From a virus: a stretch of DNA of 49,782 nt. Below the pieces are notes generated by a model. The model did not search any database. It saw only the letters and a list, made by a program, of their open reading frames with translations, and was not told the DNA's origin. A program made the translations under genes and the position numbers. Each line of letters opens with the position of its first letter. Position 1 is the first letter of the stretch. Location: positions 1-49,782 of the IMG/VR virus record IMGVR_UViG_3300045996_001500; one strand, 5' to 3'. Positions 1-44,335 of this stretch are shown here, piece by piece.

Positions 1-127
1 ACGAACAACGAGGCGCAGACCTAGGCGAAATCTTTCGCGAGGCTTTGGCTAGCGCCATGGTGGACGTGCACACCGCATTACCCGGCCGCGTTGTGTCATA
101 TGATGCAAGCAAAAAAGTCGCGGACAT
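1..127. repeat. Left copy of 127-bp terminal direct repeat
   Basis: These 127 bases are identical to positions 49656-49782. The repeat lies inside one continuous reading frame (the spike gene) rather than at a regulatory or packaging site. An exact length of 127 is a common maximum assembler k-mer, so the simplest reading is the overlap of a circular or circularly permuted genome of 49,655 bp. A true short terminal repeat cannot be excluded from sequence alone. Confidence 0.95.
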
Positions 128-641
128 CGAACTTGTTACACGCCGGCAACTGCCCTCGGTCGAAGGTGACCCGGTAGTCGAAAAGTTGCCGTTGCTCCGA
201 AACGTGCGCATCGGTTGGTTACAGGCGGGGGGCATGTTCCTGCACATGCCGCTGGCTGCTGGCGACCACGTGCTCGTGATTTTCTGTGAGTCCTCGATCG
301 CGCAATGGCGCAGCACCGGCAAAGAAAGTCTCGCCGGCGACCAGACGAGGCACGCGCTGAGCTACGCATGGGCGCTACCGGTAGCGAGCCCCGACGCGCA
401 AGCCGCTGCTCAGACTGTCGTCCCGGGCGTAACTCACTTGGGTGGTGGCACGTTGGTCGTAGGGGACATTACCTCGAAGTTCGTTGCACTGGCTGAAAAG
501 GTGAATGACAACTTCGAGGCTATCAAAGACATGTTTGATAGCTGGCTTCCTGTTGCGAACGACGGCGGAGCGGCGCTCAAGACCGCGAGCGCTGATCTTG
601 TATTCGCCGATGTAGCTTCCACAAATTTGAAAGCAAAATAA
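3..641 (+). CDS. Baseplate spike / puncturing protein, gp138-like (main part; start lies at 49649)
   Basis: This is the body of the central spike under the tail tube, which pierces the host envelope. The N-terminal part (alternating proline/glycine turns, the 'TALPGRVVSYD' start, 'LPLLRNVRIGW', 'MPLAAGDHVLVIF', 'SIAQWRSTG') matches the OB-fold of the Gp138 N-terminal family found in gpV-like spikes. The C-terminal part is a short coiled or beta region. No start is in this part of the window: the frame runs open to the left edge and, across the circular junction, begins at the ATG at 49649, adding 17 codons before the TTG at 45. The upstream neighbour is the hub gene and the downstream gene overlaps by 1 nt (TAATG). 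It contains one TCATATGA palindrome (96-103) in Ser-Tyr-Asp frame. Confidence 0.85.
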   Translation, partial: EQRGADLGEIFREALASAMVDVHTALPGRVVSYDASKKVADIELVTRRQLPSVEGDPVVEKLPLLRNVRIGWLQAGGMFLHMPLAAGDHVLVIFCESSIAQWRSTGKESLAGDQTRHALSYAWALPVASPDAQAAAQTVVPGVTHLGGGTLVVGDITSKFVALAEKVNDNFEAIKDMFDSWLPVANDGGAALKTASADLVFADVASTNLKAK

Positions 642-1669
642 TGACACTTCCTGCACTTTCCAAAACTTGGCGTTTCGCAACCAATATCAACGTTCCGAAT
701 GCAGGGAGCACCACGGACAACGGTCGCGCGATTCTGCTCAAAGTAATCCAGCTACTGCTGGGCACTACTGGGTCTTGGACGGATAGCAATGGGGATGCTG
801 CGGCGGCGCTCGCGGACGTGACTGTAGTTGGCAGTTCGAACGGCCTCACGTCGAACATGTCAGGCACCAATTTAGTCACTCTCGTTGGTGATCTGATCTC
901 TAACTCGCCTGGTTCGTCCCATAGCTGGGTTGTGCTGCACTTGCCCGGACTGGGTGCGCTATTTCACCTCAAGCTAAGCTTTGGCACGAGTTCTTCCAAT
1001 TATGCGACCATGTCCGTTTCGTGTTCTCACTCCGGCTTCGGGGCAGCGAACGGAGGCACGGACGGCTCGCATCTCGTAGACCCTACCGCTCTGAACGAAG
1101 TAACGATCCTGAACAGCCAGCAATGGGGTGGCGGCAACTCGTCCGCGGACACGCGCGTGCATGCGATGCGCTCAACGGACGGGCAATGCACACGCATCCT
1201 GTTGTGCCGAAATAACCGAGTGTGCGGGTACTTTCAATTTGACAAAGCCGGTGACGTCGAAACGGGCTGGACTACGCCTTTCGTGTGTTGGGTAACCGGT
1301 GATAGTGCCGCGGCGCCAAGCTCTAACGTGCTGACTGTATCCAGCGCCATATCCAACGCTAACCAAAAAGGTTTCGGCGCGAGTGCCATGAGCATTTCAG
1401 CGACTACCGAAATGCTAGGCTCCACATGCATCCTTGACGCCCTCACAGCGGTCAATGCGTTCTCGGGCAACTACCCACTATTCGGCCTCGGTTATGCCAG
1501 CGTCACGGGGGGCAACGTAGGCCGGTCAGGTTTCGCGCAAGATCTTTGGGGCGGGCTCTCATCGCTCGCCACGCTCAACGGGTACCCGGACACAGGCGAC
1601 ACCAACCAATTCGTGCAGTTTGGTTGCTACGTGTTTCCGTGGAATAAAACCACGGCGCTAGGAGCATAA
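641..1669 (+). CDS. Hypothetical virion-associated protein, 342 aa
   Basis: I do not recognise this family. The protein is rich in Gly, Ser, Thr and Asn, with short beta-like stretches and no signal peptide or membrane segment, which is usual for phage tail-surface proteins. It contains seven cysteines, several paired in one segment (C-T-R-I-L-L-C-R-N-N-R-V-C). It sits between the spike and an Ig-like protein in the baseplate cluster, with TAATG-type overlaps at both ends (641 and 1669), so it is translated with baseplate genes. A baseplate-decorating or short-fibre role is inferred from position only. Confidence 0.7.
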   Translation: MTLPALSKTWRFATNINVPNAGSTTDNGRAILLKVIQLLLGTTGSWTDSNGDAAAALADVTVVGSSNGLTSNMSGTNLVTLVGDLISNSPGSSHSWVVLHLPGLGALFHLKLSFGTSSSNYATMSVSCSHSGFGAANGGTDGSHLVDPTALNEVTILNSQQWGGGNSSADTRVHAMRSTDGQCTRILLCRNNRVCGYFQFDKAGDVETGWTTPFVCWVTGDSAAAPSSNVLTVSSAISNANQKGFGASAMSISATTEMLGSTCILDALTAVNAFSGNYPLFGLGYASVTGGNVGRSGFAQDLWGGLSSLATLNGYPDTGDTNQFVQFGCYVFPWNKTTALGA

Positions 1670-2524: not shown

Positions 2525-2528
2525 TCAT

Positions 2529-3698
2529 ATGACCACGTACGGCATAACACCCGAGGGTTTCAACCGCAAAACGCTAGAAGTGATTCTAGACGAAATGCGC
2601 TCGGACGCGCAGAGCACGATCGACCCCCAAATTGACCTGGATAGCGACGGACTCCTCGGTCAAATGTATGGAGTAGTAGCGCGACAACTTGCGGAGCTGT
2701 GGGAAGGACTGGAAACGGCCTACCACGCATTCGACCGAGACGCGACGGAAGGCTTTCTTCTGACCGCGCTGTGCAAGCTGACAGGCACCGAGCGCCGTGA
2801 TGCGGACTACACGGTCGTAAAATTGGAGTGTGATCTGGACGCCGGAACGACGCTCGTCACGGACGTGTCGTTTGCCGCCACCGACCTCGACCCGACCAAG
2901 TTGTGGACGCCCCGCGAAAACTACACAGCTCTGGTGGACGGCGCGCAGGACGTTTGGTTCCGCGCAGAGGTCAAAGGTCCGATCGAAGCCCTCGCCGGAA
3001 GTATCACCACAATTAGCTCCGGGGATACCGGCTGGAACTCAGTATCGCAGGCCGCCGATGGCCTCATTGGTAGAGTCTCGGACAACGATCCGACGTTGCG
3101 AGAGCGCTCTGAGGAGCAACTCTTTGCCTCCGGGTCCAGCACCGCGCAGGCGATCAAGAGCGACGTGCTCGAACTCGAGGGCATGGGGTCCGTAGATGTT
3201 TTTGAAAACGTGTTGGACATCGTTGATAGCAATGGGCTCCCCCCGCACAGCTTCGAGGTGCTGATCTATGAGGATGACCCGATCGACGATGATTTAATCG
3301 CTCAAACGATTTGGGCTGCTGGTGCGGCCGGCGTTCGCACGGTAGGCAGTGAATCGGGCACAGCGACCGACGGCGACGGAAACGACATGACGATCAACTT
3401 TACGCGCATTAGCAGCGTAGAAATGTCAGTAGAAGTCACGATCTCCACAACCGTCGGGTACATCGGCGATACTGCGTTAAAGGCTGCCATTGCGAAGGAA
3501 TGCAATGAAGAGTTCGAAGCTGGTGACGCTGCTCAAATCTTCTTTGTGGGCGGAGTTGCGTACCAAGGTGGTGTCAAAAAAGTTTCTCTCGTCCGCTTGT
3601 CACGCCTGGGCAGCTCACTAGGAACGTCTGACGTTGCAATGACCCCGCGAGAGCGCGCGCACTTCGACACAGCAAACATCACAGTCATAACGGTGTAA
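2529..3698 (+). CDS. Baseplate wedge protein, gpJ-like, 389 aa
   Basis: Baseplate J proteins form the wedge ring around the hub and carry the trigger for contraction. The N-terminal region (about residues 10-80) has the characteristic pattern of a helical segment with 'DLDSDGLLGQMYGVVARQLA' followed by a 'DRDATEGFLLTALCKLTGTER' motif. The middle holds the beta-rich 'G-x-x-G-R-V-S-D-N-D-P-T-L-R-E-R' segment typical of the family. Length is normal (350-400). The ATG at 2529 lies inside a TCATATGA palindrome (2525-2532). The DUF2612-like gene follows after 2 nt. Confidence 0.88.
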   Translation: MTTYGITPEGFNRKTLEVILDEMRSDAQSTIDPQIDLDSDGLLGQMYGVVARQLAELWEGLETAYHAFDRDATEGFLLTALCKLTGTERRDADYTVVKLECDLDAGTTLVTDVSFAATDLDPTKLWTPRENYTALVDGAQDVWFRAEVKGPIEALAGSITTISSGDTGWNSVSQAADGLIGRVSDNDPTLRERSEEQLFASGSSTAQAIKSDVLELEGMGSVDVFENVLDIVDSNGLPPHSFEVLIYEDDPIDDDLIAQTIWAAGAAGVRTVGSESGTATDGDGNDMTINFTRISSVEMSVEVTISTTVGYIGDTALKAAIAKECNEEFEAGDAAQIFFVGGVAYQGGVKKVSLVRLSRLGSSLGTSDVAMTPRERAHFDTANITVITV

Positions 3699-4315: not shown

Positions 4316-4322
4316 TGATCAT

Positions 4323-5549
4323 ATGACAACTCGACCAGTAAACGACGTAATCGAATGGGCAAGCGATGAGAATTATGCGACCGGGACTTATACGGGCACA
4401 CCCACCCAAGTGGTGCCGTCCACTGGCCGTTTTGAACAGGGCTTTTTAGCGGATACTGTAGTGCCTGCGCAGCACGTAAACTACGTGCTAGGCAACCATT
4501 CAAAATGGATCGGTTATCTGCAAAACGTCCAACACCTCAATTGGGAAAATCACAAACGCCTGAAAGAGGCTAGCGGCGCCGAGCTGGCCGGAGATAGTGT
4601 CGCCTCGATCTGCGAGACAACATTCAGCACCTTTGTTGTCGTCAAACTTGCCACGGGCTTCGTGCGGATACTGCGCACACGGCGCGGGCAAGAATGGGAT
4701 GACAACATGGGCACCACCGGCTTTGGCTCGAACACGGATCGAATCAAGTTTGTCAGCTCAGGGTCGATCATGATCGGCATTGGGTCCGGAGCGAGTCTGG
4801 GCAACAACACGACGCGCACGATCGACGACGGCCGTACATTTGCCAATGTGGCCTGTCACGCGGGTGCGGGCGGGTACGATGACATTTGTTACGACGGGCT
4901 GAACTTCTACGCCACGCCGTTTAACGCGCTCTCGAACAAGGTGGGCAAATCCTCTACCGGAGGCTCATGGGCCGCTGTTACCGGCTCCGTGCCCGCAGGC
5001 TCGCATGTCTGGACCGGACTTGGCCTGTGCAAGATTCGCTGTGGTGCTACGGGTAACCTGGTGGTTTGGCGATATGGCGGGGACTCGGGCGCCGTGAACT
5101 TAAACCACGTGCTCTACTCGACCGACGGCGGCGCCACTTGGACAGAGAGCAGTGCTATTGCAGGCTGCACAGAGCAGTACGACCTACAATACAGCTCCGC
5201 GCATGAGAAGTTTTTCCTGCTCTGCGATGCTGGGCTGTTTTCCTCTCCTACGGGCTCGGTGTGGACGCTGATTAACTCGACCGTGACCAGGTCGGTGTAT
5301 TCGTCAATGGCCATTCAAGGAGGGCTGATCCTGATCAGCAACATGAGCAACACTGCGTCCGACGTGCTCAATTTCCTGAACTGGTCAACCGACGGTGGTG
5401 TATCGTTCAGCGCTGATTACTTCGACACCGTGTTCGGTGACCAGCGCGTCAAAACGCTGGTCGTTTCCGGCAATGGCAAATTCTGGCTCTACTACGAGGG
5501 CGACGACGCTGGCACCTCGAAGTGGCTCTACTCGTCCGCCAAGCTCTAA
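4323..5549 (+). CDS. Probable tail fibre with sialidase-type Asp-box repeats, 408 aa
   Basis: This is the last gene of the tail operon and is probably the receptor-binding fibre or spike. About 100 N-terminal residues may attach to the baseplate. The rest shows beta-propeller-like repeats with Asp-box motifs S-T-D-G-G-A-T-W and, later, S-T-D-G-G-V-S-F, typical of BNR/sialidase-like propellers. Glycan recognition is therefore plausible, but no catalytic residues can be assigned by eye. The ATG lies in a TCATATGA palindrome (4319-4326). A bidirectional terminator follows within 10 nt. Confidence 0.7.
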   Translation: MTTRPVNDVIEWASDENYATGTYTGTPTQVVPSTGRFEQGFLADTVVPAQHVNYVLGNHSKWIGYLQNVQHLNWENHKRLKEASGAELAGDSVASICETTFSTFVVVKLATGFVRILRTRRGQEWDDNMGTTGFGSNTDRIKFVSSGSIMIGIGSGASLGNNTTRTIDDGRTFANVACHAGAGGYDDICYDGLNFYATPFNALSNKVGKSSTGGSWAAVTGSVPAGSHVWTGLGLCKIRCGATGNLVVWRYGGDSGAVNLNHVLYSTDGGATWTESSAIAGCTEQYDLQYSSAHEKFFLLCDAGLFSSPTGSVWTLINSTVTRSVYSSMAIQGGLILISNMSNTASDVLNFLNWSTDGGVSFSADYFDTVFGDQRVKTLVVSGNGKFWLYYEGDDAGTSKWLYSSAKL

Positions 5550-5704: not shown

Positions 5705-6118
5705 TTAGAGTTGATCGCAAGCTTGCAGCACGCCATTCACGTCACTGCAAATTGTCTTGGGAACTTGCACCGAGGGGGTGGGTGGATTGCACGAGCACAC
5801 ACCCTGATACACTTCAAACGTGGCATCATCTCCGAGCAGCAATAGCAAGGTGCCGTCATATGGCATCGCGTAGGCCTGGCACTCGAAATTAGGGCGCCCC
5901 TCGTAGCATGTCGACTCTTGGCCAGTCACTGCCTTGTGCGCTGTGGTGTGTCCAAGGACGCTGCCGCGAATTACCGCGCAACCGCCCTGCCGAAGCCCGA
6001 GGGTGTGCGAGGTGCCGCACATCCGATCTTGCACCTTGGCCGGGGGGTCCTCTCCCTCGACTCCGACCGCGCAACCAACAAGAGCCAACATGCTTACGAG
6101 TAACGCCACAGATTTCAT
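5705..6118 (-). CDS. Small Cys-rich lipoprotein, 137 aa
   Basis: The N-terminus (M-K-S, hydrophobic core, then L-V-G-C at residues 13-16) is a textbook signal peptidase II lipobox, so the protein should be lipid-anchored outside the cytoplasm. The mature part is about 120 residues with seven further cysteines, suggesting disulfides and a compact envelope domain. It is the last gene of the replication operon and its start overlaps the previous stop by 4 nt. Phage lipoproteins of this size often act in superinfection exclusion or lysogenic conversion; that role is inference. Confidence 0.75.
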   Translation of the reverse strand: MKSVALLVSMLALVGCAVGVEGEDPPAKVQDRMCGTSHTLGLRQGGCAVIRGSVLGHTTAHKAVTGQESTCYEGRPNFECQAYAMPYDGTLLLLLGDDATFEVYQGVCSCNPPTPSVQVPKTICSDVNGVLQACDQL

Positions 6119-6750: not shown

Positions 6751-7076
6751 TTTCCAGCCGCCTTTCGGTCAATGCGTTCGATCCAGGCCATTACGCACGT
6801 TGCAAGCTGCACGAGCTCAACTCGCCGATCTGCGTCGTTCTTGGCTTGAATTGCTTCCGACAATTCTTCTACGCAGATATGTGCGCTAGTCAATTCACCC
6901 CTTTGGGTGGCGTCGTCACAATTGGCTTTCGCCCACCGCTCATCGGGCATCCCGAAGCGCGCGGGGTAGCCGTACTCTCCAGAATAGCTGACCGATGGGA
7001 GATCATTTTGGGGCCCGAACTTCTTTAGTTGCCGCTGTCGCTCAGCTTGAATTTGTAACAGTACGTTGTATGTCAT
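6747..7076 (-). CDS. MazG-like nucleotide pyrophosphohydrolase-type protein, 109 aa
   Basis: MazG-like enzymes cleave NTPs or dNTPs to monophosphates and pyrophosphate. Visible marks are the opening I-Q-A-E-R-Q-R-Q-L-K-K-F-G, a W-A-K-A-N helix, the acidic pair in V-E-E-L-S-E-A and the second metal helix R-R-V-E-L-V-Q-L-A. A longer frame extends upstream, but the ATG at 7076 has a GGAGG Shine-Dalgarno 8 nt before it and gives the family length. It may act with the dNTP pyrophosphohydrolase-like gene at 13948 and the nucleotidase at 15766 to adjust the dNTP pool (inference). Confidence 0.72.
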   Translation of the reverse strand: MTYNVLLQIQAERQRQLKKFGPQNDLPSVSYSGEYGYPARFGMPDERWAKANCDDATQRGELTSAHICVEELSEAIQAKNDADRRVELVQLATCVMAWIERIDRKAAGK

Positions 7077-7108
7077 AGGAGCCTCCAGTAGGATCGGGGA
7101 AATGTGCT

Positions 7109-7573: not shown

Positions 7574-8586
7574 GCTGCTGTTGCTTCTTTCATTTTCTTG
7601 ACGTCCGCTGAGGTAGGCCACGCAATCAAACGCCCCTTACCACCGGGGGCGCCTAGGTCTGTTTTGTCCCACCGAGGCTTGGCCGCTTTCGACCAGTATG
7701 ACATAACCTGTGGTTTAGCGGTAGGCGGAACGTCGCGCAGGTATGGCAACCCGCCCTCACGCATGATGCGCGCGAGCTCGTGCGCGACCTCGTGACCGTA
7801 AGCAGTGCGGCACTCGCCGATCAATTCATCATGCACGTAGTTGACCCCGCGAGCGCCGTACATGGGGGAGATGCCCGGACCATTGATGTGTCGGCACCAT
7901 TCGCAGCCCGCGATCGATCCGTCGCACGCACGGCAAGGGGTTGGAATGTAGCAGGCTTCGACTAGCAGAAACGTTGCGTTGCCCGCGGCACTCGCGCCGA
8001 GCCCTTGAAAGCGCGTGTTGTTGGCTTGCGTGTATGAGCACCCGCCTCGCACGATGCCGCTGAACTCGAGGCGCACCGTTTTGCTAGTGCGAGCTACCGC
8101 TGAATTGATCTCGAAGTAGCGTCGGAACTCCGGCCACGTGTTGAGCCAAATCTGTTTGAGTTCTTTCGCGCGCGCGACCGTAATATTCACGTTGTACTGA
8201 CGACGCGCGCCGAGCACGAATTTCTCCGCGCCCATTCCGCCACCCAAGCCGAAGTTGCAGATCTTGCCAGTCTGTCGACCGTCATCGATGCGAGCAAGCG
8301 CCTCTGCCCAGTACTCAGCGGAGCCCACCATGGCGAGTTGCTTTGCCATGTACGCAATCTCTGATGAGCGCTCATCGATGGGCTTCTGAGCCTCGTCCAC
8401 AATGCTGACCAGGTCGTCATATGGCGCATTGAGCACCTGACCGGCTACCATCATGTGCGGGTCCTTGCCTCCGTTGAGCGCTTCCCCCAACCGAGAAAAG
8501 CCCACCACGTTGATACACACTTGCGCCATGGTGCGGAGCTCAAGGCCGTCAAAGTCTGCGCTGAAAAAAACTAGGGGCGCGTTCAT
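7570..8586 (-). CDS. polA: DNA polymerase family A, C-terminal part (palm and fingers), 338 aa
   Basis: This is the catalytic half of a Pol I-type replicative polymerase. Motif A is S-A-D-F-D-G-L-E-L-R (about residue 10, metal Asp), motif B is R-Q-T-G-K-I-C-N-F-G-L-G-G-G-M-G (R, K and F conserved), and motif C is V-N-Y-V-H-D-E-L. The O-helix position matching Tyr766 of E. coli Pol I is Gly, as in some phage clades. A C-R-A-C ... C-E-W-C four-cysteine cluster lies between motifs B and C. The ATG overlaps the stop of the exonuclease half (ATGA), so the polymerase is split just before motif A into two ORFs in adjacent frames. Confidence 0.85.
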   Translation of the reverse strand: MNAPLVFFSADFDGLELRTMAQVCINVVGFSRLGEALNGGKDPHMMVAGQVLNAPYDDLVSIVDEAQKPIDERSSEIAYMAKQLAMVGSAEYWAEALARIDDGRQTGKICNFGLGGGMGAEKFVLGARRQYNVNITVARAKELKQIWLNTWPEFRRYFEINSAVARTSKTVRLEFSGIVRGGCSYTQANNTRFQGLGASAAGNATFLLVEACYIPTPCRACDGSIAGCEWCRHINGPGISPMYGARGVNYVHDELIGECRTAYGHEVAHELARIMREGGLPYLRDVPPTAKPQVMSYWSKAAKPRWDKTDLGAPGGKGRLIAWPTSADVKKMKEATAA

Positions 8587-12011: not shown

Positions 12012-13934
12012 TTATTCGACTTCGATTGTGATTAGCGGTTTTGGAGATTGCTTTTTGTTTGGGTCCCACCTAGGGCCTTTCCGCCGAAGCAGATCGTCCG
12101 CAGTAGGGAAATCAATGTCCGCGAGCATGAGCTTTTGCACATTGAAAGTTGTAGATTGGATATACTCCGCACGACTCAAAGCTTTGTTGAAAGCGAGTAT
12201 GTGCTCTCGTATTCCGGCGCGGACGTCGAAGCGCACCACGTCCGAGGGTTGTTGATACCGGTGCGTCCGGCCATATTGCTGCTCGGTCTTTTCTCCGGAC
12301 GCACTCGGGTTGACAATGTAATTGCTATCCCAGTTGAACTGCAGATTGCGGCCCACCAAGTTGGATTGGACGCTGGCAATGATCGGCCCCTTGTAGTCCT
12401 CTATGTAGCGACCGTTCGCATCCAGTCCCATGTTGTGGAAAAACGGAACTCTTGTCATATGACACAAGCGCTCCGAGAAGTCCACCATGTTGGACCAACA
12501 AATGCCACGCTTGTGATTGGCCAACCAATGCGCCGCGTCCTCGCACGCCGTATTGCTGACCCATATCGCCTTTTTTAGGTACTCGTACTTCTCACGCTCT
12601 TGTTGCCACAACACCACCTCGGGGGCATCCGGGAAATGACTCAGCACGTCGAACATGCTGTCGTGATTGCCTTTATCGATCGTGGTCAGAACGAACTCAC
12701 GGCAGGCCTTGCGTGCGTCCAGCCAAGACTGCGGGGGTCGGGGGTCCCACACAATAAAATAGCCTGCGTCCAGCGTGCGGGCATTGCGCGCCACTTCCTT
12801 TCCGTCCACCAACTGAAAGTTGTCTGGTAGCTCCCATTTGTTTCGCAGCTTGTCGAGGCATGCTTCCACGGTTGCATCGGGGGTCGGAGTCACTTCTTTG
12901 ACCAAGATTGACGCCGTGCAGTCGTTGCTGTGCGTCGTCATGACGTGCCCGGGGGTCTCGCGCAAGCGGCGCCCGTACGCGCTCCGAACGCGCTGCAACT
13001 CGTCAATGATGTCCTCTTCAGGCTCTCCGCAAAAGTCCAACAACGCGCCCGGTGCTATGCGAGCGGCCTCATTAGGGAGGTCTCCAATCGCCTTGTCCCA
13101 TCGTTCGCGTTCCGACCAAACCCACGGGGTTACCGACGCATGAGGTAACGCGAGTTTCTCAAGGTGGTGGTAGTCATTGATCGAGTTGTTCGTAAACGAC
13201 CCTGAGTGCACGCACACCCGCAGATAAGGCAAGTCCACTCCGCCTGCCATTGCGATCGTCTCGTGCATTTCCTCATCATTCTTCCAACGCACCGGTTGCG
13301 GCTCTCGCTGCCCGAATGCCCACAGCCCTCGAGCCGCCTCGATCTTGCGTCGCGCGTTCGCGTACTTGAACAATCGAATCGTGCGCGACGCATTCTCGTT
13401 CTTGAACATTTGGGCCTCATCGATCTGGATGAGGTCAGGGCGGAACAAAGTGAGCTCATGTTTGGCCGCGAGTGTGCCAAGCCATTGAATACTCATCAGC
13501 CGAATGTTGCGCGGAATGAACCAATGCTGTGCCAGCTTGATCTGTGAACGCTGTGTTTTCTCCAGCAGCTCCGCGGGCACCATTAGGATGTTTCGTTGAG
13601 ACTGCAGCGCCCACCCGATGAGCATTGTAGTGAGCGTCTTACCTTGACCAACGCCCACGCCACCGAACAGCCCTTGCTGCTCCACAGCTTCGCGAATCGA
13701 AGCACATTGCACGGGTCGAAGCGCGTACTCCCGCACCCCGCAAGTACCGCACACAAGAATCACCGTCTCGGTCCCGTCCTCGTTGCGAGTTCGCTCCTCT
13801 ACAACGGTTTCGTGGCCTGGACGTCGTAGCGCTTTGGTGGCCTCTTCACACCAACGCTTGGCCTCGTCCTCCCATTGCCGGCGAGGCATGCGGAGGACGC
13901 GAAGCAACTCTTGTGTGCGATACACTGCTTTCAT
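12012..13934 (-). CDS. SF2 (SNF2-like) DNA helicase/ATPase, 640 aa
   Basis: Motif I G-V-G-V-G-Q-G-K-T is at residues 92-100, motif II I-D-E-A-Q at 171-175, motif III region around the S-G-S-F-T segment, and motif VI Q-Q-Y-G-R-T-H-R near 570. A C-G-T-C pair at 62-65 precedes the ATPase. DEAQ in place of DEAH, and the R-T-H-R finger, fit phage SNF2-like remodellers/helicases that act in replication or recombination. One TCATATGA (12455-12462) lies inside, here in Cys-His-Met-Thr frame. It is followed by the Gln-rich protein after 12 nt. Confidence 0.85.
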   Translation of the reverse strand: MKAVYRTQELLRVLRMPRRQWEDEAKRWCEEATKALRRPGHETVVEERTRNEDGTETVILVCGTCGVREYALRPVQCASIREAVEQQGLFGGVGVGQGKTLTTMLIGWALQSQRNILMVPAELLEKTQRSQIKLAQHWFIPRNIRLMSIQWLGTLAAKHELTLFRPDLIQIDEAQMFKNENASRTIRLFKYANARRKIEAARGLWAFGQREPQPVRWKNDEEMHETIAMAGGVDLPYLRVCVHSGSFTNNSINDYHHLEKLALPHASVTPWVWSERERWDKAIGDLPNEAARIAPGALLDFCGEPEEDIIDELQRVRSAYGRRLRETPGHVMTTHSNDCTASILVKEVTPTPDATVEACLDKLRNKWELPDNFQLVDGKEVARNARTLDAGYFIVWDPRPPQSWLDARKACREFVLTTIDKGNHDSMFDVLSHFPDAPEVVLWQQEREKYEYLKKAIWVSNTACEDAAHWLANHKRGICWSNMVDFSERLCHMTRVPFFHNMGLDANGRYIEDYKGPIIASVQSNLVGRNLQFNWDSNYIVNPSASGEKTEQQYGRTHRYQQPSDVVRFDVRAGIREHILAFNKALSRAEYIQSTTFNVQKLMLADIDFPTADDLLRRKGPRWDPNKKQSPKPLITIEVE

Positions 13935-13947: not shown

Positions 13948-14793
13948 TCACATGCAACAGGGTTTTTCACAATCGCCCCAGCACTGCTTTTCTCCTGACG
14001 GAGGGCTCGGCTCGACATATCCGCCGGGGCGGTCGAAAAAGAGCGCCCCTTCGTCGAACTTGACGTCCTTTACGAACTTCCGAGCATCGTCCTCTGATGG
14101 GAATACCTCGGCGTGTTCCCTGTTGCCTGTCCAATACAAATACCCGTCTTTTTTGGACCGACTTGCGTACACCGTCCCATACTTGCTTGTGAAGCGGACG
14201 ATCGTGGGCAAGAACACAGCAACCTTGAGATCCGCTTCCACTTTGAGATCGGTTTCCGGCCCGAACAATGCGGCTTTCACCTTGCCGACGGACGCTGCTA
14301 ACTCGGCCTTCGCTTTTGCTAGCAAGCCGATCCGCGTTACCGGGGGCTTATTATGCTCGGCCGCTATCATCCTTTCCCGCTGCTCGGCTGCTAGCTTGTC
14401 GGACTCGTCCCAGTAACTCTCACGGGTTGGTGGCGGTCTGTCGTCCACGAACAAGTGAGGGTGCTCTTGGGACTGCACGATCGCGTCGTACAGCACCGCT
14501 AGCGACGTCATGGCCTTGCCGATATGGTGCAACTTGATCGCGGCCTCGGTGTCGTAATCCTGCCCTTCCCAAAAGCGCTTGAGGTGGCGAAACGCGGCGT
14601 CCACGTACGTGGAAGCAAGCACCCCGGCTTCGCGGTAGTTGTACGCGCCGTACTTGTATCCACCCTCTCCCATTCCGAGCGAGAGAGCGTCCAGCACGGT
14701 AAAAGGCACGCGAGTGATTGACACCTTCATGAAGCCAAAATCCTGCTTTGGGTTGGTAGGTTTCAGCTCAACTTTGACGGCTTCTTGTGTCAT
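13948..14793 (-). CDS. dATP/dGTP pyrophosphohydrolase-like protein (DUF5664-type), 281 aa
   Basis: Residues about 30-105 carry the pattern K-Y-G-A-Y-N-Y-R-E-A-G-V, Y-V-D-A-A-F-R-H-L-K-R-F-W-E-G-Q-D-Y-D and I-K-L-H-H-I-G-K-A, matching the domain annotated as dATP/dGTP diphosphohydrolase N-terminal in phages. This would remove dNTPs of the host or remodel the pool. About 170 further residues are not recognised and end in a Cys-rich tail. The ATG at 14793 is part of a TCATATGA palindrome and overlaps the upstream stop; a longer frame without Shine-Dalgarno is rejected. Confidence 0.68.
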   Translation of the reverse strand: MTQEAVKVELKPTNPKQDFGFMKVSITRVPFTVLDALSLGMGEGGYKYGAYNYREAGVLASTYVDAAFRHLKRFWEGQDYDTEAAIKLHHIGKAMTSLAVLYDAIVQSQEHPHLFVDDRPPPTRESYWDESDKLAAEQRERMIAAEHNKPPVTRIGLLAKAKAELAASVGKVKAALFGPETDLKVEADLKVAVFLPTIVRFTSKYGTVYASRSKKDGYLYWTGNREHAEVFPSEDDARKFVKDVKFDEGALFFDRPGGYVEPSPPSGEKQCWGDCEKPCCM

Positions 14794-15152
14794 ATGACGC
14801 TCCCAACTGCACGCAACCGATTCGCATTCAGTTGCCTGCGCGCGGACTTGGCCATACGAGCGCTGCGCTCGCCGGAACAATTGGCCAGCGCGTTGATACC
14901 TCGTTTGCCTTGTAACTTGAGAGCCAAATGCAGTTCTCTAGCAGGGCCATCCGGCTGGTATTTCTTCCCGCTGAACTTGGTGTTGTGCCGATACACGAAC
15001 AAGTGACGGCCGGCAAAAGGCTTGGTCAGTTGATCATATGATCGTGCTGCGGGAGGTTCGGGGGCGGCAAGGTCCACAGCCAGCATTTCCAACGCGCTTA
15101 CTTGTAGTTGCGCAAGCGCGCCGATAATGAGCGTTCCGATTCCAAGATTCAT
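14790..15152 (-). CDS. Hypothetical protein, 120 aa
   Basis: Not recognised. A hydrophobic N-terminal segment (residues 3-32) could be a membrane anchor or a buried helix; the C-terminal half is strongly basic (many Arg/Lys), so nucleic-acid binding is possible. Both ends lie in ATGA overlaps. It contains a TCATATGA (15034-15041) read as Ser-Tyr-Asp. Confidence 0.6.
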   Translation of the reverse strand: MNLGIGTLIIGALAQLQVSALEMLAVDLAAPEPPAARSYDQLTKPFAGRHLFVYRHNTKFSGKKYQPDGPARELHLALKLQGKRGINALANCSGERSARMAKSARRQLNANRLRAVGSVI

Positions 15153-17015: not shown

Positions 17016-18026
17016 TTAGACACGGTTCACGTTACTGATACCGTACAACAGTGCACCGGTATCGAAGTCTGCTCCGCAGTACGCGCGGTGCTCACACCCA
17101 CCAAATGCCCAGCACGCCCGCGGATCCCCTGGGTAGTTGTGTGCGTTGTGCTCGCGGCCCTTGCGCCTATCCTCGTTGCAGTGTTCGACCGCTTCCGTGA
17201 TGCGCTCTGCCGTCTGCAAGTGCGGCGCTACCAGACCTTCGAGCTCGTGCGCGAACACTCGGTGCCAGCTTTGACGCACGCGAGGCCGTTTTTCTCGAGT
17301 GGCGTAATTCCAGCGAAGATCGACTATCTCACGCTGATAGATAATAACGCCTGCCAGGGCATATATAGGGGCCTGCGGGTGGCCCAATAGCTTTTCACGC
17401 TCCAGCTTGGCGTACTTGAAATCTCCACATGTTTTGTGGTCACTAACGATTGCAATGCTTGGATGCTCATGCAGGTAGTCCAGATCGATTGTTCCGCCGA
17501 GCTTGATTCCACGAATGTTGAGTCTGAACCCGCTCTCAACCCGGCAAGTTCCGGGGGCAGGTAGTAGGTGCATTGTAGCGGCCGCGATTTGACCGATTCG
17601 AGTAGTGCGGTCATAGGGCACGCCGTCTCGAAGCCAGAGCTCGTGGGCCTTGTGGACGGCTGTGCCGATCTCGGTAGCGGTCTTAGGATCATCTTCGACA
17701 TCCGGTGCTGTGTTACGAAAGCCGTGCAACTGGCTGAATGCCCACTTGCGCTTACAAAGGTTCCAAGTGTCGATCGAGCTCTGCCGAACGTGCGGCATGT
17801 CAATCCGCGTGCTCCAATCGTACTTGGCCGCGTAGGGCACTTCGACCGTAGGCCGGTGCTCGGGCTGAGCGAACGGATTGACACCGACAGGCGCCGCAAT
17901 GGGCCGTTTAATAGCGTGAGTGTGGTTGCTGTGTGGTGTTGAAAGGACGGGTAATCGGCGCTTGTCCGCCGCGGAGCCCGCGAACGGACCGAAAGGAATC
18001 ACCTTCGTCTGAGCAACCACACTCAC
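17016..18026 (-). CDS. RecB/Cas4-like PD-(D/E)XK nuclease with probable iron-sulfur cluster, 336 aa
   Basis: 5' end-processing recombination nuclease. After about 80 disordered residues, motif pieces appear in order: C91 in W-N-L-C-K-R-K-W, the helix E-I-G-T-A-V-H-K-A-H-E, the catalytic strand pair G-G-T-I-D-L-D ... I-V-S-D-H-K-T (Asp and D-H-K in place of E-x-K), then Q-A-P-I-Y-A-L. A C-terminal C-W-A-F-G-G-C-E-H-R-A-Y-C triad together with C91 fits the 4Fe-4S arrangement of Cas4/AddB. First gene of the minus operon; its GTG lies 7 nt after a -10 element. Confidence 0.82.
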   Translation of the reverse strand: MSVVAQTKVIPFGPFAGSAADKRRLPVLSTPHSNHTHAIKRPIAAPVGVNPFAQPEHRPTVEVPYAAKYDWSTRIDMPHVRQSSIDTWNLCKRKWAFSQLHGFRNTAPDVEDDPKTATEIGTAVHKAHELWLRDGVPYDRTTRIGQIAAATMHLLPAPGTCRVESGFRLNIRGIKLGGTIDLDYLHEHPSIAIVSDHKTCGDFKYAKLEREKLLGHPQAPIYALAGVIIYQREIVDLRWNYATREKRPRVRQSWHRVFAHELEGLVAPHLQTAERITEAVEHCNEDRRKGREHNAHNYPGDPRACWAFGGCEHRAYCGADFDTGALLYGISNVNRV

Positions 18027-27450: not shown

Positions 27451-27557
27451 TGTAGCTCTCCGTTGTCAGATAACAGGTACCCAAGTAGGTAGTGGGATGC
27501 GAGCATGAGCACTAGGACGCATAACCCCACCACGTCGTTTTGTGACATATGTCCCAT
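27447..27557 (-). CDS. Membrane microprotein, 36 aa
   Basis: M-G-H-M-S-Q-N-D followed by a hydrophobic helix (V-V-G-L-C-V-L-V-L-M-L-A-S-H-Y-L-L-G-Y-L) and a short polar end. The ATG at 27548 is an alternative start. It ends in a 4-nt overlap with the TTG of the next gene. It lies two genes downstream of the endolysin and may take part in lysis (inference). Confidence 0.55.
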   Translation of the reverse strand: MGHMSQNDVVGLCVLVLMLASHYLLGYLLSDNGELH

Positions 27558-27558
27558 A

Positions 27559-27648
27559 TCACCAACTAGCCCCGTATGCAATCATCAATGCACCTAGCGT
27601 GGCCAGCATGCACAAGTAGATTGCATGGTAAACGTCGTTGCGGTTCAT
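27559..27648 (-). CDS. Membrane microprotein directly after the endolysin, 29 aa
   Basis: M-N-R-N-D-V-Y-H-A-I, then one hydrophobic helix (Y-L-C-M-L-A-T-L-G-A-L-M-I-A-Y). It overlaps the endolysin stop by 4 nt (ATGA), so the two are translationally coupled. Single-helix peptides coupled to an endolysin are candidates for pinholin or antiholin; this is not provable here. Confidence 0.58.
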   Translation of the reverse strand: MNRNDVYHAIYLCMLATLGALMIAYGASW

Positions 27649-28166
27649 TTGCTCAACACTTCCCGAATGAACGGCTCGATCGTGTAGAACGCTGCGACCG
27701 ATTGATATGGGCGTTCCCGCCGCGCAATCGTGTCCCCAAGCGCACCTTGGTTTCCGTCGATCGTGTGCACGCGCGCGTACCTCAGATTACCTGGGTTGTG
27801 CACGTCGTACTCAATGCGCTCAACTAATGCAAAGTGGTTGTTCTTGTGGAAGTAGGCAACGTCACCGGGCTTGCACGGATAGCCCGCCATGATCGGCGTG
27901 GTGAGGTATCCAAGGCGGAGTTTCCAGTCGCGCGTTGCGCACAGCCCCGCCTCTTTCAGACACACCAGAGTGAAGGCACCACACCAATGAAGTGGGTAAT
28001 CCCACGACTTGGCAGTAGGCATTGCCTTAGGCCAGATCTCTTTCCTCGCATCGATGCCGCGTCGGATGTCCTTGCCCAGCAGCCAGCCATTCGCCTTGGC
28101 GAGCACGAGCATTCGGTATTCGTCCGAAAGCAGGTAAGGTGCGGGGGTATGATCAGGGTTCGTCAT
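27645..28166 (-). CDS. Endolysin, CHAP/NlpC-P60-like cysteine peptidase, 173 aa
   Basis: Cell-wall hydrolase for lysis. The catalytic Cys lies in H-W-C-G-A-F-T-L (Cys62) at the start of a helix, the catalytic His in K-N-N-H-F-A-L-V-E (His111) after P-G-D-V-A-Y-F, and a third polar position in T-I-D-G-N-Q-G. The order Cys-His-polar is that of CHAP/NlpC-P60 amidases-endopeptidases. No signal peptide, so a holin is required. The ATG at 28166 sits in a TCATATGA palindrome inside the 14-nt overlap with the previous gene. Confidence 0.8.
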   Translation of the reverse strand: MTNPDHTPAPYLLSDEYRMLVLAKANGWLLGKDIRRGIDARKEIWPKAMPTAKSWDYPLHWCGAFTLVCLKEAGLCATRDWKLRLGYLTTPIMAGYPCKPGDVAYFHKNNHFALVERIEYDVHNPGNLRYARVHTIDGNQGALGDTIARRERPYQSVAAFYTIEPFIREVLSK

Positions 28167-28443
28167 ATGACATGCCTTGCGCCGGCGGACAGTAGTCCTC
28201 AATTGTGTCTAGAGAAAATTCGATGTCAACCAAAACCGCGTTTATTTTGCGGGCTTCCACTTCCCCAATACTTACCCGAGGTTTCAGTTGGACTGGCATT
28301 GGCGGGGGTGCGAGCGGGCGGTGCTTGCACATCGCGTCGAACACTTCGGCGTCCCTCGCGCGCTGCATTTTTTCCAGCGAGATTACAGCTACGATTTCAC
28401 CGATAGCGTCATGCTGCTTCTTGGTCGCCTTGCGCTTACTCAC
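28153..28443 (-). CDS. Hypothetical protein, 96 aa
   Basis: Basic N-terminus (M-S-K-R-K-A-T-K-K-Q-H), a helical first half and a Pro-rich middle; no family recognised. Starts at GTG 28443 in a GTGA overlap and ends 14 nt inside the endolysin gene, where its last codons (G-M-S-Y-D-E-P) read through the TCATATGA at 28163. Confidence 0.55.
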   Translation of the reverse strand: MSKRKATKKQHDAIGEIVAVISLEKMQRARDAEVFDAMCKHRPLAPPPMPVQLKPRVSIGEVEARKINAVLVDIEFSLDTIEDYCPPAQGMSYDEP

Positions 28444-28826: not shown

Positions 28827-29026
28827 TTGTCGGATCCTTGTTGTTTGAGCTGCCCGGCTGAAAGGGCTTGATGTGCCTTGGGTATTTCGCCTAGAAGCCA
28901 GTAGTAGAATTTGGTGCACATGCGGCACTTGTGAACGTCACACACATATCCACCGATACAAGCGCGGTGCGTTACCTCGCGGTCGCATCCTCCCACGTTG
29001 CACACTGTAGGTTCTTTAGATGTCAT
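28823..29026 (-). CDS. Small zinc-binding protein, 67 aa
   Basis: Six cysteines and two histidines are spaced as C-x4-C ... H-x2-C-x6-C-x2-H-x1-C-x2-C, indicating one or two zinc knuckles; the last 25 residues are helical. Start ATG 29026 follows TC in a CATATG context and overlaps the upstream stop. The function is unknown; proteins of this kind may bind nucleic acid or host regulators. Confidence 0.6.
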   Translation of the reverse strand: MTSKEPTVCNVGGCDREVTHRACIGGYVCDVHKCRMCTKFYYWLLGEIPKAHQALSAGQLKQQGSDK

Positions 29027-29334
29027 ATGGCTGACTCTTCCAGGCGAGTGGCCAATAGTTCGCTCTCCCATTCGAGAGCAGCTTTGCGCAGGCACGTTGC
29101 CCATGCCTCGCACCGGGGCGTTCCCATGGCCTCGAGGTATGATGCTGCGACGCACATCTCCGAGGGATTCTGGTAGTTGTCCCGCTCGCGTTCTCCCCAG
29201 GAAGGATCCCAGCGTTGAACGAGTTGCAGAGGATTAGGCGTTTGTTCAGTGGTCCTTACGACACTGAACAACTTGAGTATTTTCTTTGGGAGTGTGACCA
29301 CGGGCTGAGCGATTGTCTCGGTCATTTCCGACAT
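29023..29334 (-). CDS. Hypothetical protein, first gene of the accessory/lysis operon, 103 aa
   Basis: Not recognised. Soluble, with an R-W-D-P-S-W-G-E-R-E segment and a helical C-terminus. The ATG at 29334 lies 7 nt after the -10 CATAAC, giving a leaderless message; the in-frame ATG at 29370 would start inside the promoter -35 and is rejected. A long inverted repeat (TTGTTCAGTG ... CACTGAACAA, 29244-29273) lies in its coding sequence. Confidence 0.6.
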   Translation of the reverse strand: MSEMTETIAQPVVTLPKKILKLFSVVRTTEQTPNPLQLVQRWDPSWGERERDNYQNPSEMCVAASYLEAMGTPRCEAWATCLRKAALEWESELLATRLEESAI

Positions 29335-30077: not shown

Positions 30078-30344
30078 TCAGACCAGCCCGATTTCGTAGT
30101 ACTCACGCTCGCGCTTTTGCTTGAGATCCCAGCGACGCTTGTCCTCTGCAAGGACCGCGTCGCGGTAGGCGTCGAAGCCGATCGTTCCGAAGCTGCGCCA
30201 TGCTTGCGCTTCGCGTGCGAGGTTTTCAGCGACGCGGTCCTTGCACGCAATATCGACCAGTTCGGAATTGTTGCCGAGTGCCTGTACTGCCGTGGGTTTT
30301 TCGGATTCGCTGCTCACCTCGTTGTTGTGACCTATCCTTGTCAT
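30078..30344 (-). CDS. Hypothetical protein under a palindromic operator, 88 aa
   Basis: Acidic N-terminus, then a helical region with many Arg/Glu pairs and a final K-R-E-R-E-Y-Y-E segment. No family recognised. The start codon lies in the loop of a perfect 12-bp inverted repeat, implying tight or auto-regulation. A small hairpin AACGGC/GCCGTT follows the stop at once (30062-30078). Confidence 0.6.
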   Translation of the reverse strand: MTRIGHNNEVSSESEKPTAVQALGNNSELVDIACKDRVAENLAREAQAWRSFGTIGFDAYRDAVLAEDKRRWDLKQKREREYYEIGLV

Positions 30345-30363
30345 AGGTCAAATAGGTCACAAC
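30324..30363. promoter_or_regulatory. 40-bp inverted-repeat operator at a start codon
   Basis: Arms GTTGTGACCTAT (30324-30335) and ATAGGTCACAAC (30352-30363) are perfect. Inside the spacer another TAGGTCA occurs, so TGACCTA appears three times with regular spacing. The start codon of the minus gene (30344-30342) is between the arms. Binding here, or hairpin formation in mRNA, would block expression. Confidence 0.65.
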
Positions 30364-31187: not shown

Positions 31188-31201
31188 ATGTCATATGACA
31201 T
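31188..31201. promoter_or_regulatory. 14-bp perfect palindrome upstream of the methyltransferase gene
   Basis: ATGTCATATGACAT is the longest perfect version of the recurrent TCATATGA element. Here it is neither at a start codon nor in coding DNA but 4 nt upstream of the ATG (minus strand), which fits a protein-binding site. Confidence 0.6.
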
Positions 31202-37723: not shown

Positions 37724-37735
37724 GTTTTCTGTCAT

Positions 37736-37882
37736 ATGTCGCTTTCTATTGTCCTCAAAGTAGCCGCCGCCGCATGTGCCGGCGCGGCGTTTGTGATGCC
37801 GGAGTGGGCGCCTGTGCTCGCTCCGTTGGCCTCGTTCTTGGCCGGATACTCCCTCCCGGCTCCCGGAAAAAAGGCCGCTTAA
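37736..37882 (+). CDS. Small hydrophobic membrane protein, 48 aa
   Basis: M-S-L-S-I-V-L-K-V-A-A-A-A-C-A-G-A-A-F, a short polar turn (M-P-E-W-A-P), a second hydrophobic stretch (L-A-P-L-A-S-F-L-A-G-Y) and the end P-G-K-K-A-A. A two-helix protein with a basic tail could be a holin, but the location next to a prohead protease argues for another role or for expression timing with late genes. The ATG is in a TCATATG context with no Shine-Dalgarno. Confidence 0.55.
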   Translation: MSLSIVLKVAAAACAGAAFVMPEWAPVLAPLASFLAGYSLPAPGKKAA

Positions 37883-39474: not shown

Positions 39475-39963
39475 ATGGCTGAATATGTTCAACTTTCTGT
39501 GTCCCGGCTGCCCGCGACCGGCCTACCCGGCATGCTCGCAGACGCCAATATCCAAGACGTCAAGATCGACTCCTTGATCGCAACGGAAGCCCTGCCCTTT
39601 GGCATCTTCGTTGTGACCTCGGAGAACGAGTGCTCGCTGCCCGACGGCGGCGCCACTGACGTCACCAACGGCCGCGGCGGCATCGTGCTGCGCGACCCCG
39701 CCAAGCCCACGGGCGAGGGCTACGAAGCAGGGGACGTTGTCCCGGTGCTCCGCAAGGGGCGCGTGTTCGTCCTCACTGAAGAAACCGTGACATATGACGA
39801 CGCCGTCTATGTTCGGTACGCCTCCGGTGGCGGCGGATCACAAGCGGGCTCGTTCGGCGACGACGCGGACACCGCCACTCGCGGCATTTTGCCGAACTCG
39901 AAGTATCGCTACGGCGGCACAACGACCAACCCCGCGGTCTTGGACCTCGACCTCCTGGGCTAA
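39475..39963 (+). CDS. Head decoration / structural cement protein, 162 aa
   Basis: Beta-rich protein placed directly before the capsid gene. The pattern G-L-P-G-M-L-A-D, L-P-F-G-I-F-V, a G-x-G-G-I-V-L-R-D strand, 'YEAGDVVPVLRKGRVFVLTE' and the Gly-rich 'YVRYASGGGGSQAG' matches phage structural cement proteins that lock capsomers. The N-terminus is strand-like. Start ATG 39475 follows the protease stop by 6 nt. Confidence 0.72.
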   Translation: MAEYVQLSVSRLPATGLPGMLADANIQDVKIDSLIATEALPFGIFVVTSENECSLPDGGATDVTNGRGGIVLRDPAKPTGEGYEAGDVVPVLRKGRVFVLTEETVTYDDAVYVRYASGGGGSQAGSFGDDADTATRGILPNSKYRYGGTTTNPAVLDLDLLG

Positions 39964-41051: not shown

Positions 41052-41339
41052 ATGCTCGACCTAGCAACATTCAAAGAAAAATATCCTGAGTTCGACGCCG
41101 CAGGCGACGATATGATCCAGGGCGCTTTGGATGACGCGGAGAAGCAGATTGACGCCGAAGTATTCGGCACGAAAACAGACATTGCGCACGGACTCAAAAC
41201 TGCAATCATCCTGATGGCTAGTCCTTACGGCGCGAGCATGAGTAAGGCAGAGGACGATATCAAACGTCCCTCTTACCACAAACTTTTTTCACAGCTTTGC
41301 ATGGCGCAGTCGCGCGGCTGGCTTCGAGTGATCGTATGA
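41052..41339 (+). CDS. Head-tail connector (DUF4054-like), 95 aa
   Basis: Starts M-L-D-L-A-T-F-K-E-K-Y-P-E-F-D, the F-K-x-x-Y-P-E-F signature of DUF4054/gp6-like connector proteins, followed by helices (I-Q-G-A-L-D-D-A-E-K-Q-I). It stacks under the portal. The ATG is at the end of a terminator T-tract and lacks a Shine-Dalgarno. The stop overlaps the next start (ATGA). Confidence 0.75.
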   Translation: MLDLATFKEKYPEFDAAGDDMIQGALDDAEKQIDAEVFGTKTDIAHGLKTAIILMASPYGASMSKAEDDIKRPSYHKLFSQLCMAQSRGWLRVIV

Positions 41340-42605: not shown

Positions 42606-43012
42606 AGCATTTACCAATCATGAATACCGCCGATGCTAAGCGCATCGCGCTTGTCACCATATCCGCCACGGCTTTGGCGATCGATCTAGCTGCTCTCTTT
42701 CCTTCGTTCTGGCAACGGGGCGAGGTCAAATTTACGCTGTTAAATGTCACGTCCGGCGTTACTATGTACGCCGGATTATCGGATAGCGGTGTGGCAACAA
42801 TAGATGCCACTACCGCCCCTTCTAACGGCGCCGCCGCGTCTGCGGTGACCACGGGATTTCCGCTACTCGCGGGAGTTCCCGTCGAAGGCAGCAACAAGGC
42901 TCAGGACGGATTCTACCAATATCTGCAGGTGGACGGGTCGGGTGCCGGCGTGCTGGCGATCATGGTCAGCGAAGAGTCCGATTACGTCAAAAAGAACGGC
43001 GCAACAGTCTAA
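42602..43012 (+). CDS. Hypothetical virion protein, 136 aa
   Basis: Hydrophobic first 35 residues, then a beta-rich, Gly/Ala/Ser-rich domain. No family recognised. Its location right before the sheath gene and its composition suggest a minor structural protein. The ATG overlaps the upstream stop. Confidence 0.6.
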   Translation: MKHLPIMNTADAKRIALVTISATALAIDLAALFPSFWQRGEVKFTLLNVTSGVTMYAGLSDSGVATIDATTAPSNGAAASAVTTGFPLLAGVPVEGSNKAQDGFYQYLQVDGSGAGVLAIMVSEESDYVKKNGATV

Positions 43013-43024
43013 GGAAATTATCCT

Positions 43025-44335
43025 ATGCAACTCTCCAAAATTGTCGATCTCTCGATCTCGATCTCTACCAAGACGCCCTCGCGCGCGAGCTTGGAAACCA
43101 TTCTCGTGCTCTGCTATCACAACAAATTCTCGGATCGGGTTCGCGAGTATTCGGACGCTGACGAGATGCTGACTGACGGATTCACCACGGACGACCTTGC
43201 GTACAAGGTTGTATCGCTGATCAAGTCGCAGAACCCTTGCCCCAAGACGGTCAAGCTTGGTCGCCGCGCCACCGCGCTCACCCAGATCATGCGCATCACG
43301 CCCTCGATCACGACCTCGGGCTTCGTGTACAAGGGGTCGATCAACAACGAGGAATTTGCGGACGTCACGGTGCAACCCGGTGACCTCGTAGCGGACGTTT
43401 GTGACGACTTGGTGGTAGCTATTGGTCCGCTCTCGGGCACTACGATCGCAGACGACACTACGCACGTGACCGTGACCACCACGGCCGCGGGCGACTATAT
43501 TGCCTACAACCTAGGTTGGTCGAAGAACAACGGTATGGCCCTCAAGGACATGACCGTGGACACGACCACGGACGATGAGCTAGCTGCCATTCAGCTTGCG
43601 GATAGCGATTGGTACGGCCTCATTGTTGCGGACTCGCAAAGCGAAGCCACGCACGCGCTCGCAGCCGCATTCGCAGAGGCGAATGACAAGCTGTACATCG
43701 GACAGTCCCCGGACACGGACGCTACGATCGCCGCTACGACTACGGATGTTATGTCGGACTTGCACGGTCTGTCATATGATCAAAGCGCCGTGATCCACAC
43801 GCCCTTTACAGGGGAGTATCTCGCGGCAGGCTGGCTCGCATGTCAGCTTGTGCAAACCCCCGGATCGTACAATGCCGCGTTTCAAACCGTCAAGGGTTGC
43901 ACTGCAGCGGCTCTCACCACATCCGAGGAGAACTCGATCGAGGGTAAGAAGGGCAACCACTACACGGTCGGAGGCGGGCTCAGCGTCACGTACCCGGGCA
44001 CGACGGCCAGCGGTGGATTCCTCGACAACACCCGTTTCATCGATTGGCTACACGTCAACATGCAAGCGGACATCTTTGCTCTGCTCGTGAGCAATCCGAA
44101 GATCCCATACACGGCCGAAGGTCGTCAAATGCTGATGAATGCCGTCGAAGGCCGCCTGATCAAGGGCGTCAAAAATCAGGGCATCGTCAAGGGCTCGATC
44201 GTTATCGAAGCTCCTACCGTAGCAGAGCAGGAAGCAGCAGATAAGGCGGGACGCTTCTTTGCCGGGATCAAGTGGAGCGCGGTTCTCCAAGGCGCAGTCA
44301 ACAGGGTTGGAATCAAGGGCTCGCTGAGCCTCTAA
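43025..44335 (+). CDS. Contractile tail sheath protein, DUF3383 type, 436 aa
   Basis: Shows that the tail is contractile. The N-terminal half is beta-rich with I-V-D-L-S-I-S-I-S-T-K-T-P and S-R-A-S-L-E-T-I-L-V-L. The C-terminal core has F-I-D-W-L-H-V-N-M-Q-A-D-I-F, V-S-N-P-K-I-P-Y-T-A-E-G and a final strand G-I-K-G-S-L-S-L, typical of DUF3383 sheaths. It is followed by the tube gene, as usual. Shine-Dalgarno AAGGA. TCATATGA at 43772 encodes Ser-Tyr-Asp. Confidence 0.85.
   Translation: MQLSKIVDLSISISTKTPSRASLETILVLCYHNKFSDRVREYSDADEMLTDGFTTDDLAYKVVSLIKSQNPCPKTVKLGRRATALTQIMRITPSITTSGFVYKGSINNEEFADVTVQPGDLVADVCDDLVVAIGPLSGTTIADDTTHVTVTTTAAGDYIAYNLGWSKNNGMALKDMTVDTTTDDELAAIQLADSDWYGLIVADSQSEATHALAAAFAEANDKLYIGQSPDTDATIAATTTDVMSDLHGLSYDQSAVIHTPFTGEYLAAGWLACQLVQTPGSYNAAFQTVKGCTAAALTTSEENSIEGKKGNHYTVGGGLSVTYPGTTASGGFLDNTRFIDWLHVNMQADIFALLVSNPKIPYTAEGRQMLMNAVEGRLIKGVKNQGIVKGSIVIEAPTVAEQEAADKAGRFFAGIKWSAVLQGAVNRVGIKGSLSL

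Follow-up and report, generated by a model that had tools for sequence, protein, structure and literature searches.

Why should one eight-base palindrome recur throughout a phage genome? The question is raised by IMG/VR virus record IMGVR_UViG_3300045996_001500, analysed over positions 1 to 49,782 (the whole stretch, hereafter the window), in which the octamer TCATATGA is dispersed through early, late and accessory regions. The record is a whole virus genome of 49,655 bp once circularly closed: an exact 127-bp direct terminal repeat occupies window positions 1-127 and 49656-49782, indicating a complete circular assembly in which counts near the ends are doubled. The octamer proves to be the core of a longer, selected motif. 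In the explanation that we favour, with about even confidence, the copies are dispersed operators for a dimeric, most likely phage-encoded Fis/NtrC-type helix-turn-helix (HTH) protein that acts as a genome-wide regulator.

A palindrome without a rival word

All 13 positions listed for TCATATGA in a first-pass annotation made from the sequence carry the exact octamer; a 14th occurrence at 49751-49758 is the terminal-repeat duplicate of the copy at 96, leaving 13 distinct copies on the circle. Expected numbers are 0.27 (dinucleotide shuffles), 0.34 (order-2 Markov) and 0.65 (order-3 Markov); the earlier estimate was ~0.5. Window GC content is 57.3%, not near 55% as then given. When 8-mer palindromes were ranked, TCATATGA came top with a Poisson probability of 1e-16, ~14 orders of magnitude from the runner-up (1e-2.2). 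An order-6 Markov model predicts 11.1 copies, but it is a circular control because it is built from enriched 7-mers, and it shows only that the signal is already present in CATATGA. CATATGAC occurs 24 times against 0.73 expected and GTCATATGA 18 times against 0.17, and half-degenerate copies (NCATATGAC) are likewise enriched.

Sequence preference continues beyond the octamer. In the 13 exact copies, which were not chosen by their flanks, 25 of the 26 half-sites have G or A next to the octamer (p = 8e-6), flanking bases 2-4 are also biased, and information reaches out to roughly four bases on either side. Six of the copies can be extended to GTCATATGAC, and positions 31188-31201 form a perfect 14-bp palindrome, ATGTCATATGACAT, both as originally described. 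The whole motif is a degenerate palindrome of roughly 16 bp, approximately TTTGTCATATGACAAA, in which one half-site is often degenerate. A symmetric matrix derived from the sites (GTTTGTCATATGACAAAC), with gradually declining information, scores 31 sites at more than 11 bits (1.65 expected) and 27 at more than 12 bits (0.85 expected), counts that lean upwards as the matrix was trained on the very sites it scores. Density is ~one site per 1.6 kb; the count of 13 exact copies was thus accurate for the octamer but undercounted the phenomenon. Because the flanks are graded and some copies are half-degenerate, we infer the site of a dimeric DNA-binding protein rather than a word for a restriction or methylation enzyme.

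Selection on the DNA word

Permuting synonymous codons genome-wide, with proteins kept, gives 0.51 octamers inside genes and at most 3 in any of 1000 runs. The genome has 9, and the expectation lies far under the ~10 copies at which a codon-aware background would account for the excess. The clearest sign lies in the tripeptide Ser-Tyr-Asp, which is spelled TCA TAT GAY (GAC/T) in six of its eight occurrences in the genome (per-case probability 0.03, P = 2e-8), with TAT a minor codon (27%) and TCA making up 11% of Ser codons; in NCA-Tyr-Asp, TAT is used in 10/10 cases. Since six of eight Ser-Tyr-Asp share one spelling, selection falls on the DNA word and not on the protein. The octamer also occurs in a His-Met-Thr context (12455), in stop/start overlaps (14790, 25801), on start codons and in noncoding stretches, and coding sequences (CDS) contain 16 matrix sites above 11 bits against 3.7 by synonymous shuffling. 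Selection therefore acts on the DNA word independently of the protein code; in favour of this symmetric site it overrides the choice of codons in genes for structure and for replication, in a myovirus that is apparently not temperate. Such codon saturation of Ser-Tyr-Asp offers a general route to motifs of this kind from sequence alone.

Three other origins were considered and rejected. Synonymous and upstream shuffles rule out coding or start-codon bias as the cause; similarity around the sites ends at ~18 bp, against a repeat spread by copying; and an RNA element was discarded as no Rfam match was found. Because the palindrome is gapless and has no loop, double-stranded DNA is its natural target and an RNA hairpin is unlikely.

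Sites at start codons, in noncoding DNA and within genes

Sites occur in all gene blocks and on either strand, as reported earlier. A start codon forms the exact centre of nine matrix sites (2529, 4323, 7076, 14793, 22164, 28166, 29026, 30344 and 41336), and six are noncoding (18040, 24878, 27545, 27554, 31191 and 37732), two of them between divergent genes, in a genome of which 6.5% is noncoding; these classes overlap wherever genes overlap, and individual gene starts, assigned by hand from open reading frames (ORFs) and Shine-Dalgarno-like context, may shift. TCAT stands before 5/33 ATGA start codons and before 21/295 other ATGA. The small-gene block at 23-32.9 kb, which contains both HTH genes described below, holds 12 sites against 6.4 expected (p = 0.024, uncorrected for four regions), and the late structural block holds 8 against 14.4 (p = 0.03 before correction). 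The best site lies inside a larger imperfect dyad at 31179-31212 (TTGCATG ... ATGTCATATGACAT ... CATGCAA) that includes the start codon of a methylase gene and is a possible autoregulatory operator.

Enrichment specific to this lineage among the relatives sampled

Relatives were sampled by sheath or primase (nine), terminase (~80) and portal (25), all of them distant, and neither these ~115 nor four named phages are enriched. The terminase-, primase- and sheath-related loci (1.1 Mb, including two bacterial loci retrieved with the methylase) hold 9 copies against 13.8 expected, and the 25 portal relatives hold 0 against 0.85; 19 whole contigs carry 0-2 copies each, and the four named phages 0, 0, 0 and 3. 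A scan of IMG/VR with TTGTCATATGACAC returned many contigs, none comparably enriched within the stretches fetched, methylase-based relatives were absent from IMG/VR, and the top-ranked matches of a literature text search for TCATATGA were all unrelated. Among the distant relatives sampled, the enrichment is specific to this lineage. No close relative was found in phage records with the first 25 kb as query, and IMG/VR relatives share single genes only, at 27-54% identity.

Other words are enriched elsewhere: locus L166 carries an enriched octamer, GCAGCTGC, restricted to ~3.4 kb, and among 8-bp palindromes CGAGCTCG ranks first for enrichment in several GC-rich phages (L233, L041, L239, L064 and L243), at ~4-8x expectation without codon control.

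Candidate readers encoded by the phage

Proteins with Fis/NtrC-type DNA-binding domains are small HTH dimers with symmetric binding sites, and some organise whole genomes. Although the first-pass annotation saw no phage gene that was clearly the partner, two genes encode plausible readers, both candidates only. The 157-aa protein, whose gene is the lone plus-strand gene within a minus-strand block, marginally passes the Pfam HTH_8 threshold (23.0 bits, cut-off 22). For the 73-aa protein HTH matches fall below cut-off, and its predicted model of four helices (pLDDT 78) has as top PDB fold match a sigma-54 activator DNA-binding domain (probability 0.98, although E = 0.3); several Fis entries rank lower. 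The two phage proteins differ from known Fis/NtrC domains in having no sequence relative among the phage records searched, and the palindrome is their putative target. The phage also encodes an adenine methylase that aligns full-length with DpnII and E. coli Dam, the LYRVN/LCRYN segment included. It is disfavoured as the reader: that match makes GATC its likely target, and GATC is absent from 8/13 octamers, so that the modification-enzyme site proposed earlier is not supported either.

In the mechanism we favour, the ~31 TTTGTCATATGACAAA sites would be occupied by a DNA-binding protein that is sequence-specific and acts as a symmetric dimer, and this reader would most likely be among the small Fis/NtrC-type HTH proteins that the phage itself encodes. 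Occupancy would fall at gene starts, in divergent intergenic regions and at internal positions in every operon, where the bound protein would block or pause transcription genome-wide and perhaps also organise phage DNA. The octamer without a rival word, the codon-controlled excess, the graded symmetric matrix, the enriched half-degenerate copies, the gapless palindrome, the start-codon and noncoding placement, the denser small-gene block and the two encoded HTH proteins all speak for this mechanism. The motif itself is established, as are its symmetry, its copy number and the selection on the word. Of the steps inferred from it, reading by a protein dimer is the firmest; that the reader is phage-encoded and Fis-like is less secure, and that its job is transcription control is the least secure. 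If a phage protein does read the motif, the sites would constitute a genome-wide phage regulatory or nucleoid-like system. A more specific version is tentative and on balance doubtful: the genome of a virulent phage would carry a dense network of palindromic sites maintained by selection, some centred on start codons and others concealed in synonymous codons, through which a phage-encoded Fis-like protein silences or organises the incoming genome without lysogeny.

Several observations weigh against the favoured explanation. The model of the 157-aa protein is of low confidence (pLDDT 54), and the fold matches of the 73-aa protein are statistically weak, the E value above being the best. No relative of either HTH protein was found in the phage records searched, nor of the 157-aa protein in IMG/VR. 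The matrix scan places no strong site at the promoter of either HTH gene. The preference for start codons is partly a matter of accessibility, because ATGA supplies half of the word. The reader may also be a host protein.

Alternative explanations

The last of these points can be developed into an account in which a host global regulator or nucleoid protein reads the sites and the phage gained copies to recruit or titrate it, an account for which the lack of a strong site at the HTH gene promoters also speaks. We regard it as unlikely, given that two HTH candidates are among the phage's own genes; that terminase and portal relatives are unenriched also speaks against it, weakly, since their hosts may differ. 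The sites could instead anchor a nucleoid-like, partition or packaging protein that organises the genome and does not act directly on transcription. The classical nucleoid proteins include small Fis-like ones, and sites spread over all gene blocks and within coding sequence on either strand, structural genes among them, would suit such a function; the excess of sites on start codons and in the noncoding fraction, the depleted late structural block and the lack of a recognised ParA or ParB among the proteins scanned against PHROGs make it improbable.

A different kind of cause would be a HIP1-like drive. In cyanobacteria one octameric palindrome, HIP1 (GCGATCGC), is strikingly over-represented throughout coding sequence and tied to orphan methylases (PMC4390886), and a methyltransferase combined with biased mismatch repair could multiply its own word without any binding-site function. 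The window shares the over-represented octameric palindrome (13 copies against 0.34), an orphan Dam-family methylase gene adjoins the best palindrome, and single-base deviants are enriched chiefly at outer positions, as reported for HIP1. HIP1, however, is a feature of host genomes with matching methylases, whereas the present word is degenerate and extends past eight bases, and the phage's methylase has as its predicted target GATC, which most octamers lack; graded flank information would be unexpected for an enzyme word, and repair drive would require a host co-evolved with the phage. We judge this origin very improbable. Least credible, and close to negligible, is chance or coding bias through codon usage, start-codon context or protein composition: most exact copies do fall at start codons and in Ser-Tyr-Asp, and the order-6 model does predict 11, but that model is circular, synonymous shuffling already refutes the idea, and six of eight Ser-Tyr-Asp combine both of the uncommon codons TCA and TAT.

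Comparison with dispersed sites in other phages

Dispersed repressor-like phage sites are best known from temperate mycobacteriophages. In the cluster A-type system, binding of the repressor halts transcription elongation. The stoperators of cluster A, read by L5 gp71 or the TipsytheTRex repressor, are 13-bp sites for a monomer with an HTH and a stoperator domain, and they resemble the present sites in being two to three dozen short dispersed elements in a ~50-kb genome, some at promoters and some intergenic (PMC9283540; PMC6550527). L5-type stoperators are asymmetric, oriented with transcription and placed in short intergenic gaps (PMC9283540). The window likewise has many dispersed copies of one repressor-like site (~31 against 1.65), but the octamer is its own reverse complement, the 16 sites inside CDS depart from promoter or intergenic confinement, and an integrase and parABS or other partition genes were not found among the large ORFs and proteins scanned against PHROGs (some ORFs <190 aa lay outside the scan). 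Because asymmetry, intergenic confinement and the temperate gene set all fail, we do not class the motif as a stoperator system, alike as number and dispersal are, and the likeness to temperate stoperators drawn by the first-pass annotation is not borne out. What remains of that interpretation is a dispersed, selected, palindromic motif resembling a protein site; the stoperators, the modification enzyme and the missing partner are not supported.

The SAS/ESAS elements of cluster K mycobacteriophages are also repeated short elements at gene starts whose reader is not known (PMC3203893). SAS (GGGATAGGAGCCC) is asymmetric and lies immediately upstream of starts, whereas the palindrome here is centred on the ATG at nine of ~31 sites, and most others lie inside genes.

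Genome context and coordinates

Recognised genes encode terminase, portal, protease, major head protein, tail sheath, tape measure and baseplate proteins, together with DNA polymerase, primase/helicase, exonucleases and the Dam-family methylase. No recognisable immunity repressor was found in the phage, which is seemingly a virulent, non-temperate myovirus.

Table 1. Coordinates and setting of motif sites, candidate readers and the methylase in the window.
Feature	Position	Strand	Setting	Bits
TCATATGA	96..103		In-frame Ser-Tyr-Asp, gene 45/57-641(+); duplicated at 49751-49758	
GATCATATGAC	2525..2532		Centred on ATG 2529, baseplate wedge gene 2529-3698(+)	
GATCATATGACA	4319..4326		Centred on ATG 4323 of 4323-5549(+)	
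TGTCATATGACA, perfect 12-bp palindrome	12455..12462		Within helicase-like gene 12012-13934(-), His-Met-Thr frame	
Exact octamer	14790..14797		Centred on start codon of 13948-14793(-); overlaps stop codon of 14790-15152(-)	
GATCATATGATC, 12-bp palindrome	15034..15041		Within 14790-15152(-), Ser-Tyr-Asp frame	
Exact octamer	19634..19641		Within primase/helicase gene 19424-21658(+), Ser-Tyr-Asp frame	
Exact octamer	21329..21336		Within primase/helicase gene 19424-21658(+), Ser-Tyr-Asp frame	
Exact octamer	22160..22167		Centred on start codon, trypsin-like lipoprotein gene 22164-22931(+)	
Exact octamer	25801..25808		Overlaps stop codon (ATA TGA) of 25801-26190(-); overlapping ATG opens possible 52-codon ORF	
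Exact octamer	28163..28170		Centred on start codon of CHAP-like 27645-28166(-); Ser-Tyr-Asp near end of 28153-28443(-)	
ATGTCATATGACAT, perfect 14-bp palindrome, best site	31188..31201		36-bp gap directly before methylase start codon	
Exact octamer	43772..43779		Within tail sheath gene 43025-44335(+), Ser-Tyr-Asp frame	
Near-consensus TCATATGG	5856..5863		Within 5705-6118(-)	12.5
Near-consensus	7073..7080		Centred on start codon of 6747-7076(-)	
Near-consensus TCATATGG	8417..8424		Within DNA polymerase gene 7570-8586(-)	15.7
Near-consensus	17611..17618		Within 17016-18026(-)	12.3
Near-consensus	18040..18047		Between divergent 17016-18026(-) and 18108-19427(+)	
Near-consensus	20543..20550		Within primase/helicase gene	13.9
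Near-consensus	24878..24885		Between divergent 24343-24867(-) and 24924-25349(+)	11.8
Near-consensus pair, overlapping	27545..27561		Gap upstream of 27016-27450(-)	
Near-consensus	29023..29030		Stop/start overlap, start of 28823-29026(-)	
Near-consensus	30341..30348		Centred on start codon of 30078-30344(-)	
Near-consensus	37732..37739		Gap upstream of 37886-39469(+)	
Near-consensus	39790..39797		Within 39475-39963(+)	13.8
Near-consensus	41332..41339		Centred on start codon of 41336-41803(+)	
Candidate reader, 157 aa	29466-29939	+	N-terminal Fis-family HTH (HTH_8)	
Candidate reader, 73 aa	31920-32141	-	Stand-alone Fis/NtrC-DBD-like (DNA-binding domain) HTH protein	
Dam/DpnII-like adenine methylase	30375-31184	-	Predicted GATC-specific; disfavoured as reader	

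The DNA polymerase is seemingly split across 7570-9944(-): the PHROG DNA-polymerase match is confined to 7570-8586, and the 453-aa gene at 8583-9944, which overlaps and precedes the polymerase part, has no PHROG, Pfam or NCBIfam match. The trypsin-like protease at 22164-22931(+), on whose start codon a site is centred, carries a lipoprotein-type signal (LLVACS) and is unusual phage cargo. A 95-aa HNH protein (10740-11027(-)) has as its top NCBIfam match, below cut-off, the HNH region of IscB/Cas9d. The gene at 13948-14793(-) encodes a dATP/dGTP diphosphohydrolase-type N-terminal domain (PF18909) and lies near a nucleotidase-like gene (15766-16449); the two may point to manipulation of the nucleotide pool.

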